A stretch of 58,174 bases of DNA from Deltaproteobacteria bacterium (GTDB lineage: Bacteria; Desulfobacterota; Dissulfuribacteria; Dissulfuribacterales; QOAL01): assembly GCA_026986785.1 (NCBI GenBank), contig JALSNW010000007.1, forward strand, positions 1 through 58,174, given 5' to 3'. The notes under the pieces were generated by a model. That model saw only the letters and a program-made list of their open reading frames with translations, was not told the DNA's origin and did not search any database. This document shows positions 48,754 to 56,336 of the stretch, piece after piece. Position 1 is the stretch's first letter. Each line of letters begins with the position of its first letter. Made by a program: the position numbers and the translations under genes.

Positions 48754-51273
48754 ATGGGCAGGACAAAAAAGGCAAAGAGGGCGAAACAATTTGATAGAAA
48801 GGAGATAAACGAGTTGAAAAGGGCCTTTGCCTACAACCTATTTTACAATCAAGGCAAAGCTCCGGAGACCGCGGTGTTGAATGATTATTTTATGGCCGTT
48901 TCCCACACCATCAGGGATAGGATGCAACACCTCTTTATCAACTCTGTTGAAAATATATTAGAAAGACCTGTAAAGATCGTATGTTATCTATCAGCTGAAT
49001 TTTTGCTGGGTCCCCATCTTGCCAACAACCTCATCAACCTTGGAATCTACGAGCAGGTGGAAAAGGCCTTGGAAGAGACAGGGCTCGATCTGGGTGAAAT
49101 CATAGACCACGAGGTGGAGCCAGGGCTTGGAAATGGGGGCTTAGGACGCCTTGCAGCATGCTATCTCGACTCCATGTCTTCCTTGCGCATCCCTGCTATA
49201 GGTTATGGCATACGGTACGAGCATGGGATGTTTCACCAGACAATTGAAAACGGCTGGCAAAAGGAACTGAGCGATATGTGGCTTCATTATGGCAATCCCT
49301 GGGAGATCAAGAAACCAGAGATATGCTATCAGATTGGTTTTGGGGGCCATACAGAGTCGTACACGGATGAAAATGGCAAATACCGAATGCGCTGGGTGCC
49401 TGCACGCATGGTTAATGCCGTGGCTTATGATACCCCAATCCCTGGATACAAAGTGAACAATGTCAATGTACTACGTCTATGGAGTGCGGAGGCGGTAGAA
49501 TCCTTCGATTTCGAGGAGTTCAATATAGGTGATTATTTTGGTGCCATAGAGGAGAAGGTAAAGGCTGAAAACATAACCAAGGTCTTGTATCCCAATGATG
49601 AACAGTGCCAAGGCAGACAGTTGCGCCTTGAACAGCAGTTTTTTTTCGTATCTGCCTCCCTTCAGGATATGATCCGGATTCATCTGAAAAAGCATGGGTT
49701 CCTTTCAAATTTCCATGACGGTTTTGCCACCCAGTTGAATGATACCCATCCGTCTGTAGCCATCCCTGAGCTCATGCGGCTTCTCATGGACGAACATGGA
49801 ATGGGATGGGAAGATGCCTGGGAGATAACCACGAAGACCATGGCCTATACCAATCATACCTTGTTGCCAGAGGCCATGGAAAAATGGCCAATAAGTCTTT
49901 TTGCCTCCCTTCTGCCAAGACATCTCGAGATCATCTTTGAGATCAACAGGAGATTCCTCGACATGTTGAAAGAGAGATATCCTGATGACGATCAGCGCCT
50001 AAGACGCATGTCCATAATCGATGAAGATGGAGGGAGGTTTGTGCGCATGGCAAACTTGGCCTGTGTAGGCACCCATGCAATAAATGGCGTGGCAGCCATA
50101 CACACTTCCCTGCTTAAAAGACACACCCTCCGGGACTTTGACGAATTATGGCCTGGCAAGATAAGTAACAAGACCAATGGGGTTACTCCAAGACGCTGGA
50201 TGCTTGTGGCAAATCCTCGCCTCAGTTCCTTGATAACAGAGGCAATAGGTGAAAAGTGGATAACAGACCTGTACCAGTTGAAGAGGCTCGAAGGTTTTGT
50301 AGACGATCCTTCCTTCCGAGAGGCATGGCAGAGGGTACAAGAAGAAAACAAGAAGGAAGTGGCCGAAAGGGCAATGGCCAAAGGCGTGCAGGTTGATCCA
50401 AGATCCATGTTCGATGTGCAGGTCAAGCGCATCCATGAATATAAACGCCAGCACCTCAATGTACTCCATATCATAACCCTGTACAATCGGATCAAGGCGA
50501 ATCCAAGTATCGACATTGCACCGCGATCCTTTGTCTTTGGCGGCAAAGCAGCCCCAGGCTATTACATGGCAAAACTCATCATAAAATTGATAAATTCCGT
50601 GGCCAATGTGATAAACAACGACAAGGATGTAGATGATCGACTGAAGGTATTTTTTATAAGCAACTATAATGTAAAGACTGGCCACACGGTCTATCCCATG
50701 GCAGATCTTTCAGAACAGATCTCCCTGGCAGGAAAGGAGGCCTCGGGCACTGGCAACATGAAATTTTCAATGAATGGCGCCCTTACCATTGGCACCCTTG
50801 ATGGGGCAAATGTTGAGATCAGGCAGGAGGTAGGCCCTGAAAACTTCTTTTTGTTCGGACTTACTGTGGATGATGTCATGAAAACAAAGGCCTCCGGCTA
50901 CAATCCCCAGGATTATTATCATGAAGACGAAGAGTTGAGACATGTCATTGACCTCATAAGTTCTGGTTACTTTTCAAATGGGGATAGGGAGCTTTTCAGG
51001 CCATTGGTCGATTCCTTGCTCTTTCACGACGAATACATGCTATTTGCCGATTACAGGCCTTATATCGACTGTCAGGACAGGGTAGGCCGGGCTTTTCTGG
51101 ATCAGGACCGTTGGACCAGGATGTCCATAATGAATGTAGCCAGGATAGGAAAATTTTCCTCTGATAGGTCCATCAGTGAATATTGTAGGGATATTTGGGG
51201 TGTTACTCCATTTCCTGTGAGGCTAAAGTGGAAGAAGATTCCAGAAAAAGGGATAATTTTGCGGAGAAAATGA
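48754..51273 (+). CDS. glgP: Glycogen/starch phosphorylase
   Basis: PLP-dependent enzyme releasing glucose 1-phosphate from alpha-1,4-glucan. The 839-residue protein has LAACYLDSMSSLRIPAIGYGI, KRIHEYKRQHLN and the PLP Lys region EASGTGNMKFSMNGA, plus GTLDGANVEI. Length and motifs match the family. AGGAG lies 8 nt before the ATG, 52 nt after pyk. It should feed glucose 1-phosphate to glycolysis after conversion by phosphoglucomutase. Confidence 0.97.
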   Translation: MGRTKKAKRAKQFDRKEINELKRAFAYNLFYNQGKAPETAVLNDYFMAVSHTIRDRMQHLFINSVENILERPVKIVCYLSAEFLLGPHLANNLINLGIYEQVEKALEETGLDLGEIIDHEVEPGLGNGGLGRLAACYLDSMSSLRIPAIGYGIRYEHGMFHQTIENGWQKELSDMWLHYGNPWEIKKPEICYQIGFGGHTESYTDENGKYRMRWVPARMVNAVAYDTPIPGYKVNNVNVLRLWSAEAVESFDFEEFNIGDYFGAIEEKVKAENITKVLYPNDEQCQGRQLRLEQQFFFVSASLQDMIRIHLKKHGFLSNFHDGFATQLNDTHPSVAIPELMRLLMDEHGMGWEDAWEITTKTMAYTNHTLLPEAMEKWPISLFASLLPRHLEIIFEINRRFLDMLKERYPDDDQRLRRMSIIDEDGGRFVRMANLACVGTHAINGVAAIHTSLLKRHTLRDFDELWPGKISNKTNGVTPRRWMLVANPRLSSLITEAIGEKWITDLYQLKRLEGFVDDPSFREAWQRVQEENKKEVAERAMAKGVQVDPRSMFDVQVKRIHEYKRQHLNVLHIITLYNRIKANPSIDIAPRSFVFGGKAAPGYYMAKLIIKLINSVANVINNDKDVDDRLKVFFISNYNVKTGHTVYPMADLSEQISLAGKEASGTGNMKFSMNGALTIGTLDGANVEIRQEVGPENFFLFGLTVDDVMKTKASGYNPQDYYHEDEELRHVIDLISSGYFSNGDRELFRPLVDSLLFHDEYMLFADYRPYIDCQDRVGRAFLDQDRWTRMSIMNVARIGKFSSDRSISEYCRDIWGVTPFPVRLKWKKIPEKGIILRRK

Positions 51274-51486: not shown

Positions 51487-51891
51487 TCATCCTTTCATCA
51501 TTTCCTCGTTCAGCATCTTGGCAATCGGTCTGAAGGCCTCGCAATTTTTGCACATCTCTATCTTGTTTCGTGGGCTGTTGCTGAGACATTTCTCGCAAAA
51601 TGTACCATTGATGAACCAACATAGCCTGCCAACATTGAACTGCCACGCAGGACAACCCTCTCTTACTTTATCAGCACACCGATTCACCTCCCAACAGGGA
51701 TGAAGTGCCTCATTGACTCCAGCCATTCTTGAAAGAAAGAAATATATCTGTCTTTCTATATGGACAGGGATCGAGCGCCAACCCTGTTCATAACTCGATA
51801 CTGCCTTGAGGGAAGTCCCAAGTAATTGGGCCATTTCTTTTTGTGTCTTTCCAAGAATCCTTCTTGCAGCTACAAATTCTCGTTTCTCCAT
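51487..51891 (-). CDS. XRE-type helix-turn-helix regulator with cysteine-rich two-CW domain
   Basis: A 134-residue protein. Residues about 5-50 are an HTH of the XRE group (ILGKTQKEMAQLLGTSLKAVSSYEQGWR). The C-terminal half has cysteines and tryptophans arranged as in two-CW proteins (PCWEVNRC, EGCPAW, RLCWF, CEKC, MCKNC). Ten Cys suggest bound metal or a redox sensor. It is divergent from the selenocytochrome operon, so it is a good candidate regulator; this is inference. The ATG at 51891 is preferred over a TTG ten codons upstream. No clear ribosome site. Confidence 0.8.
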   Translation of the reverse strand: MEKREFVAARRILGKTQKEMAQLLGTSLKAVSSYEQGWRSIPVHIERQIYFFLSRMAGVNEALHPCWEVNRCADKVREGCPAWQFNVGRLCWFINGTFCEKCLSNSPRNKIEMCKNCEAFRPIAKMLNEEMMKG

Positions 51892-51970
51892 AGCGTTCAA
51901 TTTAATTAATGTCAAAATCAAAGGACAACACTTTCTCTATTAGAAAGATAATTTTTTGTTGAAAAATAAG

Positions 51971-52036
51971 TTGACAATTCAAGTTTTCTGAGATATGTGA
52001 AAAGTTATACTACTACCACAATGTGGTACTACCACA
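51971..52036 (+). promoter_or_regulatory. Promoter and repeated operator of the selenocytochrome operon
   Basis: TTGACA (51971-51976), 17 nt, TATGTG (51994-51999) gives one promoter; TATACT (52006-52011) is an alternative -10. Just downstream lies a 15-bp palindrome TACCACAATGTGGTA (52014-52028), and a third TACCACA at 52030-52036. Three identical half-sites placed at the start site suggest repression by a dimer with an extra half-site. Gene start follows at 52098. Confidence 0.5.
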
Positions 52037-52097
52037 ATACATTGATTCTGGCAATCCATGGTTTGCTGAAAACGGGAGACAAGAGGAGGTATTTCGG

Positions 52098-53444
52098 ATG
52101 AAAAGTCCACTTTCCAAAGGATTTCTACTGACAGCGCTAATCTTGATCATTTCCCCATGCATGAATGCGTGGACGGCAGAAGAAGATACGTCTGACAGCA
52201 GTCAGTGCGTAGCCTGCCACACAGACCTCGAAGAGATGGATGATTATGGTGCAAAGGCAGCCAGCGCTGCTGCTGCGGTGGCTGGCTGAGGTGTCTCTGC
52301 ACCCCAGGTAAGGGGGCGCGATACCTTTGGAGTAGCCAAGGATTTCTTAGATACACCTCACGGTGAACTTGGCTGTCGTTACTGTCACAAGGGCCAAAAT
52401 GTAGACGACGAAGAAGAGGCCCACAAAGGCATTATAAAAGATCCATCCGATGCCCAGGGCGGGGGGGTCTGTAGGGAATGTCACGAGGACATCACTTCAA
52501 CCTATAAGGATTCCATGCACTATACCCTCAATGGGATAATGGACATAGTCAAGACTATTTCCCAGCCTCATAAGCTAAAAGACACCCTGCTTCCAGAGGC
52601 ATGGAAATTGGATTGTGCTGAATGTCATGCCAGCTGTGGAAGCTGCCACGTGGCTTGGCCCCATGTGTCAAAGGGTGGACTAATCGACCGACACAGGTTC
52701 CAAAAGAAGCCGCCCATGGAAAAGACCTGTTTTGGTTGTCATGGTTCCCGCTTTGCCGGTGAATATGTAGGTTTCCTTGGGGAGAATGCAGATGTTCATT
52801 ACTCCAAGGGCCAGATGGAGTGTTACGACTGTCACAAGGGCTCGCAATTTCACGAAACCAAACCCAAGGGAGTAAAACGCTATTATGCCACAGAAACACC
52901 AAGGTGCGAACAGTGCCACCCAGATGCAGTGCCAGGCAGATCAAGGATACCCATGCACAATGCCCACGGGAAAAACGTACTGGCCTGTCAGGTGTGCCAT
53001 GCCACTACATACTTCAACTGCCAAAACTGCCATGTATCTCTCGATGTAAAGAAAGAAGGGGAAATAAAGGTAATATTTCCATCTGATCCACTCTATACCT
53101 TCAAGATCGGGAAAAATATAGATATTGGTCCAAACAATCCATACAAGTACAACCTTGTAAGGCATTCTCCCATGAGGAAGGATTCCCTGGCATCCTTGCG
53201 CTATTTCCAGGCCGTGATCAAGGGAAAGCCTGGTCCCAAGGACCTGATTGCCAACTGGGATGCACTTCCTACCTGGAATTCCGCTGCTGTTCACAGCATC
53301 CAGAGAAAAACGAGACAGAACCAATCGTGTAATTCCTGTCATGGGGTCAAGGAGCTTTTCCTCACCAAGGACGACATAAGGCCAGAAGATCCCAAGGCTA
53401 ACTACAAGGTGGTGGCAAAGGTTCCACCCAAGATAAAGAAATAG
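52098..53444 (+). CDS. Predicted selenocysteine-containing undecahaem c-type cytochrome
   Basis: Read through the in-frame TGA at 52287-52289 as selenocysteine 64, giving 448 residues. GAGGAGG lies 8 nt before the ATG. A signal peptide (MKSPLSKGFLLTALILIISP...) is followed by CVACH at 37-41, an Ala-rich stretch AASAAAAVAG, Sec64, then ten more CxxCH motifs: CRYCH, CRECH, CAECH, CGSCH, CFGCH, CYDCH, CEQCH, CQVCH, CQNCH, CNSCH. Eleven haems in total, in the periplasm. No stop lies between TGA and 52515, and CRYCH and CRECH fall there before any ATG. Read as two genes, the second would start at 52515 and lose these haems and a signal peptide. First gene of the four-gene operon. Function unknown; Sec suggests chemistry with Se, S or a redox centre. 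Confidence 0.85.
52290..52325 (+). promoter_or_regulatory. Bacterial SECIS-like stem-loop after the in-frame TGA
   Basis: Directly after the TGA: GGTGTC (52290-52295) pairs with GATACC (52320-52325) using one G-T pair, and CCCC (52302-52305) pairs with GGGG (52312-52315) around the apical loop AGGTAA (52306-52311). Inner bases 52296-52301 and 52316-52319 form an irregular internal loop with a few possible pairs. The loop GGT is 17 nt after the TGA; the known bacterial loop of fdhF is AGGUCU at a similar distance, as I remember it. Confidence 0.75.
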
Positions 53445-53471: not shown

Positions 53472-54443
53472 ATGCACAAGATAATACAAGGCAACATGAT
53501 ATGTTTACTGGTGATGGTGGTATTAGCTTCTGCCGTCAGTTCCCCTGGCTGGGTATCGGCGGCCGGGACAGCCCCACTGGTTTCAACTGATTGGCTGGAC
53601 AAGCACAAGTCGGACAAGGCGGTTGTCATCGTAGATGTACGTAGCGATGCAAACTACGGCTTTGCTCACATACCAAATGCAGTGAGTATCCCCTATACGG
53701 AACTGGAGCCCAAATCGACCACTGGACTCTTTGTGGTACCTGGGGAGAAGAAATTGACCGAACTATTCCAAAAGGCAGGGATAAACAAGAATTCCCATGT
53801 GGTCGTTTATGCCCATGGAAATACCGTTAGTGATGCCTCGAAGGCAGGGGCATCTTATTGGATATTCAAGGCCATGGGGCACAAGAAGGTCTCTATGCTC
53901 AACGGTGGATTCACCAAGTGGACTTTTGAAGGCAGAGTTGTGACCAACAAGGTCCCAAATAGGAAACGAGGCAATATCGTGGCCAAGAAGGACCCGTCTA
54001 TCTTTGCGGATTTCCATGAGGTGGCCAGGGTTGTTCAAAAGGGTGGTGCCATTCTCATGGATGCCAGAAATTCTGTTCAATATTTCGGCCATGAAAAAAG
54101 GGCAGACGTGCCATGTTATGGACATATACCCGGTGCCATTAATCTACCTGCTGATTTTCTGACCCACGCAGGTATCAATAGGGCTCCAGCCACCCTGAAG
54201 GAAAAAAAGGACCTGCAAAGGATGGTGACAGGTGTAGGTGTTCCCAGCACCAAGTCCACTACCATAATAGTTTATTGCAACACCGCTCAGTTGGCGGGGC
54301 TGAATTATTTGGTGTTGAAAGACATGCTTGGTTACAGAAATGTCAAGGTATACGACGGTTCAATGCTGGAATATTGCAAGCTCAAGGGAAAACTCCCAGT
54401 GGAAATTTTTTCCTGGAGCATAAACCCGCCCAAAAAACTGTAG
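53472..54443 (+). CDS. Exported tandem-domain rhodanese, catalytic Cys present
   Basis: A 323-residue periplasmic sulfurtransferase. The signal peptide is about 1-30 (ICLLVMVVLASAVSS...VSA). Two rhodanese domains follow: the first (about 35-160) has VVYAHGNTVS where the Cys should be, so it is the usual inactive half; the second (about 175-320) has the catalytic Cys at C269 in VYCNTAQLAG. Second gene of the operon, 27 nt after the cytochrome, with AGGAG 7 nt before the ATG. It could move sulfane sulfur or a selenium equivalent. Confidence 0.9.
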   Translation: MHKIIQGNMICLLVMVVLASAVSSPGWVSAAGTAPLVSTDWLDKHKSDKAVVIVDVRSDANYGFAHIPNAVSIPYTELEPKSTTGLFVVPGEKKLTELFQKAGINKNSHVVVYAHGNTVSDASKAGASYWIFKAMGHKKVSMLNGGFTKWTFEGRVVTNKVPNRKRGNIVAKKDPSIFADFHEVARVVQKGGAILMDARNSVQYFGHEKRADVPCYGHIPGAINLPADFLTHAGINRAPATLKEKKDLQRMVTGVGVPSTKSTTIIVYCNTAQLAGLNYLVLKDMLGYRNVKVYDGSMLEYCKLKGKLPVEIFSWSINPPKKL

Positions 54444-54464: not shown

Positions 54465-55430
54465 ATGCGCCTCAAAATACGACTGACTATTGCCACAGTA
54501 GTGATGACTGCGGTGCTGATATGTGCAGGACTCGTCGCACCGCGGCAGTCTTCAGCTGCAAATGGTCTTGTGACAATCGAATGGTTATCGAAGCACCTCA
54601 ATGACAAAGGATTGATAATCCTGGATGTGAGGACTTTCCCTAAGTACATCAAGAGTCATATCCCAGGTGCCATCAGGGCCTTTGGGCCCTGGCAGGTAAC
54701 AAATGCCGACTTCATTGGTTTCATGACACCGCCAGTGGAACAATTGGAAAATATGCTCAGGGGATTTGGGGTATCAAACGACTCCCTGATCATAATCTAT
54801 GATCAGGGCATGACTTCCAGTGATACCTCGAAAAGTGCAAGGGCACTGTGGACATTGCACTATCTTGGACACACCAAATGCGCCATCTTAAATGGCGGAT
54901 TCAATGCCTGGGAGCAGAGGGAAAAACCCATCACTACCCAGCCAGCAGTACCCATGACAGGAACATTCAAGGCCAAAGTTGTGTCCAACAAGCTTATAAC
55001 CCTTGACGAGGTGAAGAAGAAACTCGGCAAAAAGAATTGCTGGTTTGTAGATCTCAGACAGCCCCATGAGCACTTTGGCCATGAAAAGAAGAGCTATATA
55101 TCTCGTTTTGGCCACCTTAGAGGCTCTCTTCTCATGCCATCTGCATATATGACCATAGGAGGACAGGATTTTTCACCTGCTTATCTAAGGAGCAAAGACA
55201 AATTGAGGCATATGGCAGCCGGGTGCGGTATCCCATCCGATCCGAATGCAGAGATTGTTGTCTATAGCAATACAGGTCTTGATGCTGCTCTGGGATATTT
55301 TGTCCTGAACGAGATCCTGGGTTACAAAAATGTAAGATTGTTTGATGGTTCCATGCTTGAGGCTTCCAAAGACAAGGATGTGCCAATCACCAGGTATTCC
55401 TGGGGTTGGAATGATTACAGAAATAAATAG
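54465..55430 (+). CDS. Exported tandem-domain rhodanese, catalytic Cys replaced by Ser
   Basis: A 321-residue paralogue of the preceding protein, with a signal peptide (MRLKIRLTIATVVMTAVLIC...). The first domain has IYDQGMTSSD at the active position; the second has VVYSNTGLDAALGYF, with Ser268 (codon AGC) in place of the catalytic Cys. It is not a recoded TGA. It should not be an active sulfurtransferase, and may bind ligand or partner. GGAGG lies 8 nt before the ATG and the gap from the previous gene is 21 nt. Confidence 0.9.
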   Translation: MRLKIRLTIATVVMTAVLICAGLVAPRQSSAANGLVTIEWLSKHLNDKGLIILDVRTFPKYIKSHIPGAIRAFGPWQVTNADFIGFMTPPVEQLENMLRGFGVSNDSLIIIYDQGMTSSDTSKSARALWTLHYLGHTKCAILNGGFNAWEQREKPITTQPAVPMTGTFKAKVVSNKLITLDEVKKKLGKKNCWFVDLRQPHEHFGHEKKSYISRFGHLRGSLLMPSAYMTIGGQDFSPAYLRSKDKLRHMAAGCGIPSDPNAEIVVYSNTGLDAALGYFVLNEILGYKNVRLFDGSMLEASKDKDVPITRYSWGWNDYRNK

Positions 55431-55457: not shown

Positions 55458-56336
55458 ATGAGGAGAAGTTGTATTAGCGTTACAATCGTAATAGCTGCTG
55501 CATTCATACTGACAGCCATTGGGAATGCCCGTGCAGGGGCACCACTGACCAATGCGGAAGGTGTTGGAGGGGTTGCCCTAAATCCCATGGCATATATCGC
55601 CAATCCTATCAAAGAGGGAGAAAAGGGTCTTTTTGGTGCTGGTATCGTATCAAAACCCCAACTTGGTATCTGGAATATCAGATTGTCTGAAAGCGGGGTA
55701 AACTGGTTTACCATAGGCGGTAATATCTCTTTTTTCAACAGGCTGGAACTCGGCTATTCCCATGAATTCATCGACATAGAAGACGTTCCAAAAACTGTTG
55801 ACAAGAACAATTTCACATTCAAGTTGAATCTTATCAAGGAAAATGATTTTGGCACGAAATTCCTACCAGCATTGTCTTTCGGAGGCATCTATAAGACAAC
55901 CGATGCTGACGATGACTTTGCCCTCAAAGACACAGAGGACTTCGACTTTTATTTCGTGGCCACGAAGATGATTCCTGGATTGCCTGTACCACTCATCCTC
56001 AACGCAGGTGTGCTCAACACCAAGGGTTATGTAAGAGGAGTTCTTGGTTTTGGAGATGACAGGGCCTGGGTATTTTTTGGCAATATAGATACAATACTCT
56101 TCGACAAGTTCATCGTTGGCTGGGAGTATGAACAAGAGGCCGAGGTAGGAGACGTGTTCAAGGGAGAAAAAGGGCAAAAACACACTACCCACTCCATGTG
56201 GGAGGCACATGTAGCATATATGTATAATGAGCACCTGACACTTGTAGGTTCATGGGCCTACACTGGGGATAGTGACTCGAGTGGCCAGGCTGCATTCGAT
56301 CATGCCTATGTCCTCTCACTGCAATACGCTTTTTAG
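55458..56336 (+). CDS. Outer-membrane beta-barrel protein (DUF3034-like)
   Basis: A 292-residue exported protein: signal peptide 1-27, then many amphipathic strands (LGIWNIRLSESGVNWFTIGGNIS, LELGYSHEFIDI, FKLNLIKENDFG, GFGDDRAWVFFGN, HVAYMYNEHLTLVGSWAYTG) and a terminal Phe (LQYAF), as expected of barrels assembled by Bam. It resembles the DUF3034 group by memory. Last gene of the operon, GGAGG 10 nt before the ATG. A porin for the substrate or the outer part of an electron conduit is inference. Confidence 0.85.
   Translation: MRRSCISVTIVIAAAFILTAIGNARAGAPLTNAEGVGGVALNPMAYIANPIKEGEKGLFGAGIVSKPQLGIWNIRLSESGVNWFTIGGNISFFNRLELGYSHEFIDIEDVPKTVDKNNFTFKLNLIKENDFGTKFLPALSFGGIYKTTDADDDFALKDTEDFDFYFVATKMIPGLPVPLILNAGVLNTKGYVRGVLGFGDDRAWVFFGNIDTILFDKFIVGWEYEQEAEVGDVFKGEKGQKHTTHSMWEAHVAYMYNEHLTLVGSWAYTGDSDSSGQAAFDHAYVLSLQYAF

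Follow-up and report, generated by a model that had tools for sequence, protein, structure and literature searches.

A hairpin that directly follows an in-frame TGA codon in a multihaem cytochrome gene is read here as a bacterial SECIS element, with the UGA being decoded as selenocysteine (Sec64) by SelB-dependent insertion (probability about 0.95). The gene lies in a 58,174-nucleotide stretch of DNA from a Deltaproteobacteria bacterium (contig JALSNW010000007.1), the whole of which is called the window. Judging from its sequence, the encoded selenocytochrome is a periplasmic protein with 11 haems, and the selenoprotein family that it represents is uncatalogued. A SECIS-like hairpin had been proposed at this site in the preliminary description, and the proposal is borne out by the position, the loop, the folding energy, the UGA in about 50 homologues, the covariation in a sister clade, and the Sec machinery of the genome. 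The features of the locus are listed in Table 1.

Table 1. Features of the selenocytochrome locus, in window coordinates
Feature	Position	Strand	Basis
HTH/two-CW domain gene, divergent	51487..51921	-	NF045718, HTH_3
Palindrome TACCACAATGTGGTA	52014..52028	.	Between divergent HTH/two-CW gene and selenocytochrome
Putative ribosome-binding site AGGAGG	52084..52089	+	8 nt 5' of ATG; by sequence
Selenocytochrome gene	52098..53444	+	448 aa, TGA read through; full-length homologues
UGA codon, predicted Sec64	52287..52289	+	Nearly every full-length homologue has TGA in this column
Predicted SECIS hairpin	52290..52325	+	Fold; clade A conserves the upper stem better than the lower
Hairpin lower stem GGTGTC/GATACC	52290-52295 with 52320-52325	+	Sequence, fold
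Hairpin upper stem CCCC/GGGG	52302-52305 with 52312-52315	+	Sequence, fold
Apical loop AGGTAA	52306..52311	+	AGG(U) in 7/8 clade A sequences, AGUU in one
Rhodanese 1, exported, two-domain	53472..54443	+	PF00581, sequence, synteny
Rhodanese 2, exported, two-domain	54465..55430	+	PF00581, sequence, synteny
DUF3034 protein	55458..56336	+	PF11231; conserved clade A neighbour by synteny

The in-frame UGA and its hairpin

The TGA interrupts a single open frame, and reading it as Sec joins the two parts into one protein. Eleven CXXCH haem motifs were counted in the product, and its N-terminus is hydrophobic and signal-like. Sec64 is located between haems 1 and 2 in a glycine-rich loop, which reads VAG-U-G in the window protein and GEG-U-[GA]G in most relatives. 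Pfam recognises general haem-motif families only, including a match to PF13435 in 14 of 24 family members, and an NCBIfam scan of the family returned nothing above cut-off.

The coordinates and letters first given for the hairpin are correct, and the GGT of its loop lies, as claimed, exactly 17 nt downstream of the TGA. Folding of the 44 nt from the TGA yields the expected stable stem with GGT in the loop,.((((((((..(((.((((......))))))).)))))))), at -22.1 kcal/mol. Dinucleotide shuffles of the hairpin give -13.25 +/- 2.35 kcal/mol (z -3.77), with 2 of 200 being as good. When the shuffles preserve the protein, the energy of the hairpin is mildly unusual (p 0.048), with p 0.23 for the apical stem alone. 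By itself, the hairpin is thus mildly to moderately unusual with the protein held fixed, and the case therefore rests on the homologues.

The hairpin agrees with all four constraints of the bacterial SECIS model (bSECIS), which was used as published (PMC13188914, Fig. 2). The loop of 6 nt and the upper stem of 4 bp, plus 3 past a bulged A, fall within the ranges of 3-9 nt and 4-16 bp, and the loop AGGUAA has a G at position 2, where at least one G is required in positions 1-2. The spacing between the UGA and the apical loop is 16 nt (52290-52305), the lower limit of the 16-37 nt allowed, and the minimum free energy is below the -7.5 kcal/mol threshold. Rfam reports no SECIS family at threshold at the hairpin site, just two chance matches with E > 1.

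The genome, which is 99% complete, contains tRNA-Sec, selA, selB, and selD, with matches of 371 bits for SelB, 603 bits for SelA, and 367 bits for SelD. The selD gene (L133, 1501-2424) has an in-frame TGA of its own, in SGUAAK, and the SelD of this genome is probably itself a selenoprotein.

Conservation in three clades

Homologues were drawn from two samples of the phylum and one of the order. About 50 of them, in 47 of 395 genomes of the phylum, have a single in-frame TGA in the same column, although these counts come from mutually related sequences and are not independent events. In nearly all full-length homologues the UGA is conserved together with the protein frame on both sides, which is the pattern that a selenoprotein test looks for. 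Three sequences depart from it: L116 has tyrosine (codon TAC) at the Sec column, the match in G001 is a fragment that starts after the Sec site at a contig edge, and the second copy in G357 is broken. No Cys homologue was seen in about 400 genomes of the phylum, and the family is apparently always made with selenium. The deep-Sep method, by its own account, may misjudge selenoproteins without Cys homologues (PMC12013277), and the new family looks like a case that it could miss. If the assignment is true, this is a Sec-only family that searches requiring a Cys homologue would overlook.

The tree contains three deep clades, namely clade A with the window and VAG-U-G (support 100/100), clade C with GEG-U-AG (100/100), and clade B with GEG-U-GG (88/87 for the grouping). 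Their stems differ, and the apical G(G/U) is found about 17-18 nt after the UGA in all of them. Within clade A, the stem as originally drawn holds in its upper part, CYCC/GGGG being present in 8/8 sequences, whereas the third pair of the lower stem (GGTGTC/GATACC) is broken in 6/8; the lower stem appears less certain than the upper. Conservation of the loop, AGGU in seven of the eight sequences, fails only in L012, which has AGUU. Compensatory changes had been suggested as a further check. Covariation is found in clade B, whereas two-sided covariation for the drawn structure is absent from the eight sequences of clade A, and the codon-preserving test is weak there.

Clade B forms its own stem type around a GUU loop. 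Its covariation score is 0.390 versus 0.185 +/- 0.027 for shuffles (0/500 as high), with much of the signal coming from one event in a seven-member clade, and 90.8% of cells are paired versus 35-49% on sliding. In the codon-preserving stem test the median p is 0.003 for clade B and 0.006 for clade C. A swap of two base pairs in clade B converts GGCUCC/GGAGCC into GGAGCC/GGCUCC and, in the protein, APLE into EPLA. The EPLAP sequences form one clade of 7 rows (support 100/98), with L017 and L092 (GGPLAPLEL) outside it, so that the swap is, on this phylogeny, a single inherited event. Since it exchanges Ala and Glu, the predicted RNA stem is seen to have shaped the protein, from Ala-Pro-Leu-Glu to Glu-Pro-Leu-Ala, and would illustrate cleanly how an RNA element can steer the sequence of a protein. 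Further paired changes occur in L020 and L118 and, in clade C, in L126. The loop codon of clade B is TTG in 17/19 sequences and GTG in the other two, meaning that every Leu at this position (17/17) is encoded by TTG; the share of TTG among the Leu codons of the same genes is 19%. The clade C stem, UCCGCC/GGCGGA, shows one two-sided change, in L126.

These comparisons bear on two other accounts of the codon. If the TGA were a true stop, arising from a pseudogene lesion or an assembly error, the hairpin would be incidental; the standard code indeed splits the gene into frames 52023-52289 and 52515-53444, and the hairpin alone is not extreme with the protein fixed, but the same TGA in independent assemblies from many families, with the protein conserved on both sides, and the covarying stem of clade B already contradict this account, which is exceedingly improbable. 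Insertion of Trp, Gly, or some other amino acid at the UGA without selenium, whether through an altered code or a near-cognate tRNA, has nothing direct in its favour and can hardly be right, given that neighbouring genes end normally in TGA (e.g., 51271-51273), that every clade has a specific hairpin after the codon, and that the window genome has the complete Sec machinery. For selenocysteine insertion, the preferred reading, SelB loaded with Sec-tRNA would bind the AGGU apical loop, presumably by contacting its GG, and the UGA immediately before the hairpin would be decoded within the cytochrome.

Neighbouring genes and proposed function

The usual gene order in clade A is the divergent HTH/two-CW gene, the selenocytochrome, rhodanese 1, rhodanese 2, and DUF3034. 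The HTH/two-CW gene adjoins the cytochrome in 5/7 clade A relatives and probably encodes a regulator. The half-site of the palindrome TACCACAATGTGGTA occurs again at 52030-52038, while the exact site is a single copy in the 2.59 Mb genome. Of the 7 clade A promoters, 6 contain the palindrome in a form close to TACCACANTGTGGTA, with an A in place of T in one arm in one of them and a C in another. It is absent from the L044 promoter, and the HTH/two-CW gene was likewise not found there. The palindrome is probably a locus-specific operator and is put forward as a candidate.

A rhodanese adjoins the selenocytochrome in all three clades. In clade C, a two-domain rhodanese is next in all nine loci that extend far enough, and in clade B a rhodanese is next in 8/8 loci scanned. 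Rhodanese 1 of the window has a Cys in its second active-site loop (YCNTA) alone, and rhodanese 2 is without Cys in both loops (YDQGM and YSNTG); one of the partners may be a non-catalytic carrier or scaffold. In L116 (252-2387, minus strand), a single fusion protein of 711 aa combines the Tyr-variant cytochrome with two rhodanese domains.

We think that the selenocytochrome works in the periplasm on sulfane-sulfur or selenium species, either as a redox enzyme or as a carrier of electrons. As a redox-active selenol in the glycine-rich loop, Sec64 would exchange sulfane sulfur or some form of selenium with the rhodanese encoded beside it, and the haem chain would carry electrons in or out for the selenol. 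A sulfur species as the substrate is a tentative proposal, slightly short of even odds.

An unlikely though serious alternative is that the protein serves selenite, tellurite, or metal reduction in the manner of ExtHIJKL, not sulfur chemistry. ExtKL and the rhodanese ExtH form a comparable pair, for which links to the reduction of selenite and tellurite (PMC5877670) as well as of Fe(III) and Mn(IV) (PMC6148476) are on record. On the ExtH model the two rhodaneses of the window score 72 and 58 bits, short of the 200-bit cut-off. However, the cytochromes belong to different families, and no ExtI-like conduit partner in the outer membrane was identified. Less probable again is a role of Sec as a structural or axial haem ligand that tunes the potential of a neighbouring haem and is not a nucleophile. 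Its position between haem motifs 1 and 2 would suit such a role, as would the Tyr of the single variant L116, which could also ligate iron, but the flexible glycine-rich context and the rhodanese partner suit a reactive selenol better.

Of two AlphaFold models, one (pLDDT 54) was too poor and the other (pLDDT 74) was usable, the latter with a pLDDT < 50 in the Sec loop. Foldseek gave no match against the PDB at E 0.001, and a profile search of PDB sequences gave local haem-motif matches only. A second structural comparison found weak similarity to octahaem enzymes of the HAO-like and MccA kinds (Z 2.3-4.6), consistent with no more than a remote relationship to multihaem redox enzymes. The combined picture of a Sec-only family of 11-haem periplasmic cytochromes, with a selenol that works with a dedicated rhodanese and an RNA stem that dictates an amino-acid swap in one clade, is somewhat favoured. 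If correct, it adds one more selenoprotein family, and a role in sulfur or selenium redox chemistry in anaerobic Desulfobacterota becomes open to test through the pairing with rhodanese.

Comparison with known selenoproteins

The SECIS of Escherichia coli fdhF, a hairpin directly after its UGA with an apical AGGU about 17-18 nt downstream, resembles the window hairpin in these respects. The stem and the host gene differ.

Like the new family, ExtKL (Geobacter GSU2937-2936) is a multihaem periplasmic cytochrome whose single Sec is encoded by an in-frame TGA, and its gene cluster includes a rhodanese. It differs in having 5 haems and a Sec near residue 300 in AGHxIPDGUP, compared with 11 haems and VAGUG here. 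The ExtKL model (NF040886) was tried as a home for the gene and rejected; its cut-off is 250 bits, and an NCBIfam scan to E 10 gave no match. The loci of the new family had no match to NF040886 in the genomes checked, and hhalign aligned ExtKL with the family over 23 columns only, around one haem motif. Another multihaem frame of the window genome (L057, G000:C13:22663-23457), which has no TGA inside, is weakly similar to the ExtKL model (56.7 bits) and is the only NF040886 match of this genome. An unnamed Sec 'cytochrome c family protein' is listed under pfam13435 in a 2022 review, and a 2026 review names the same entry ExtKL. No paper using 'selenocytochrome' or near terms was found in a literature coverage that is partial and leaves most subscription journals outside. 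No name for the new family was found either, though a subscription journal or a database entry could already describe it.

The octahaem tetrathionate-reductase-like family (TIGR04315) is also multihaem, and some of its members contain Sec. It was rejected as a home as well: the genome has no match at E 1e-30, and the best member of the new family scores 25 bits against a cut-off of 375. The hhalign comparison nevertheless aligns TIGR04315 with residues 119-307 of the new family (97.9%, E 4e-13), suggesting a distant relative over this region. At NNF[U/C], the Cys of some TIGR04315 octahaem cytochromes of the phylum corresponds to an in-frame TGA in many others (e.g., L139 and L142). In TIGR04315, too, the Sec comes between the first and second haem motifs of the chain, but the Sec columns of the two families are not aligned. 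TIGR04315 has 8 haems, Cys members, and distinct loci, in contrast to the 11 haems of the new family and the lack of any Cys member seen. On these comparisons, the new family is distinct from both multihaem selenocytochromes so far recorded, ExtKL and the octahaem tetrathionate-reductase-like family, and would represent a third kind.
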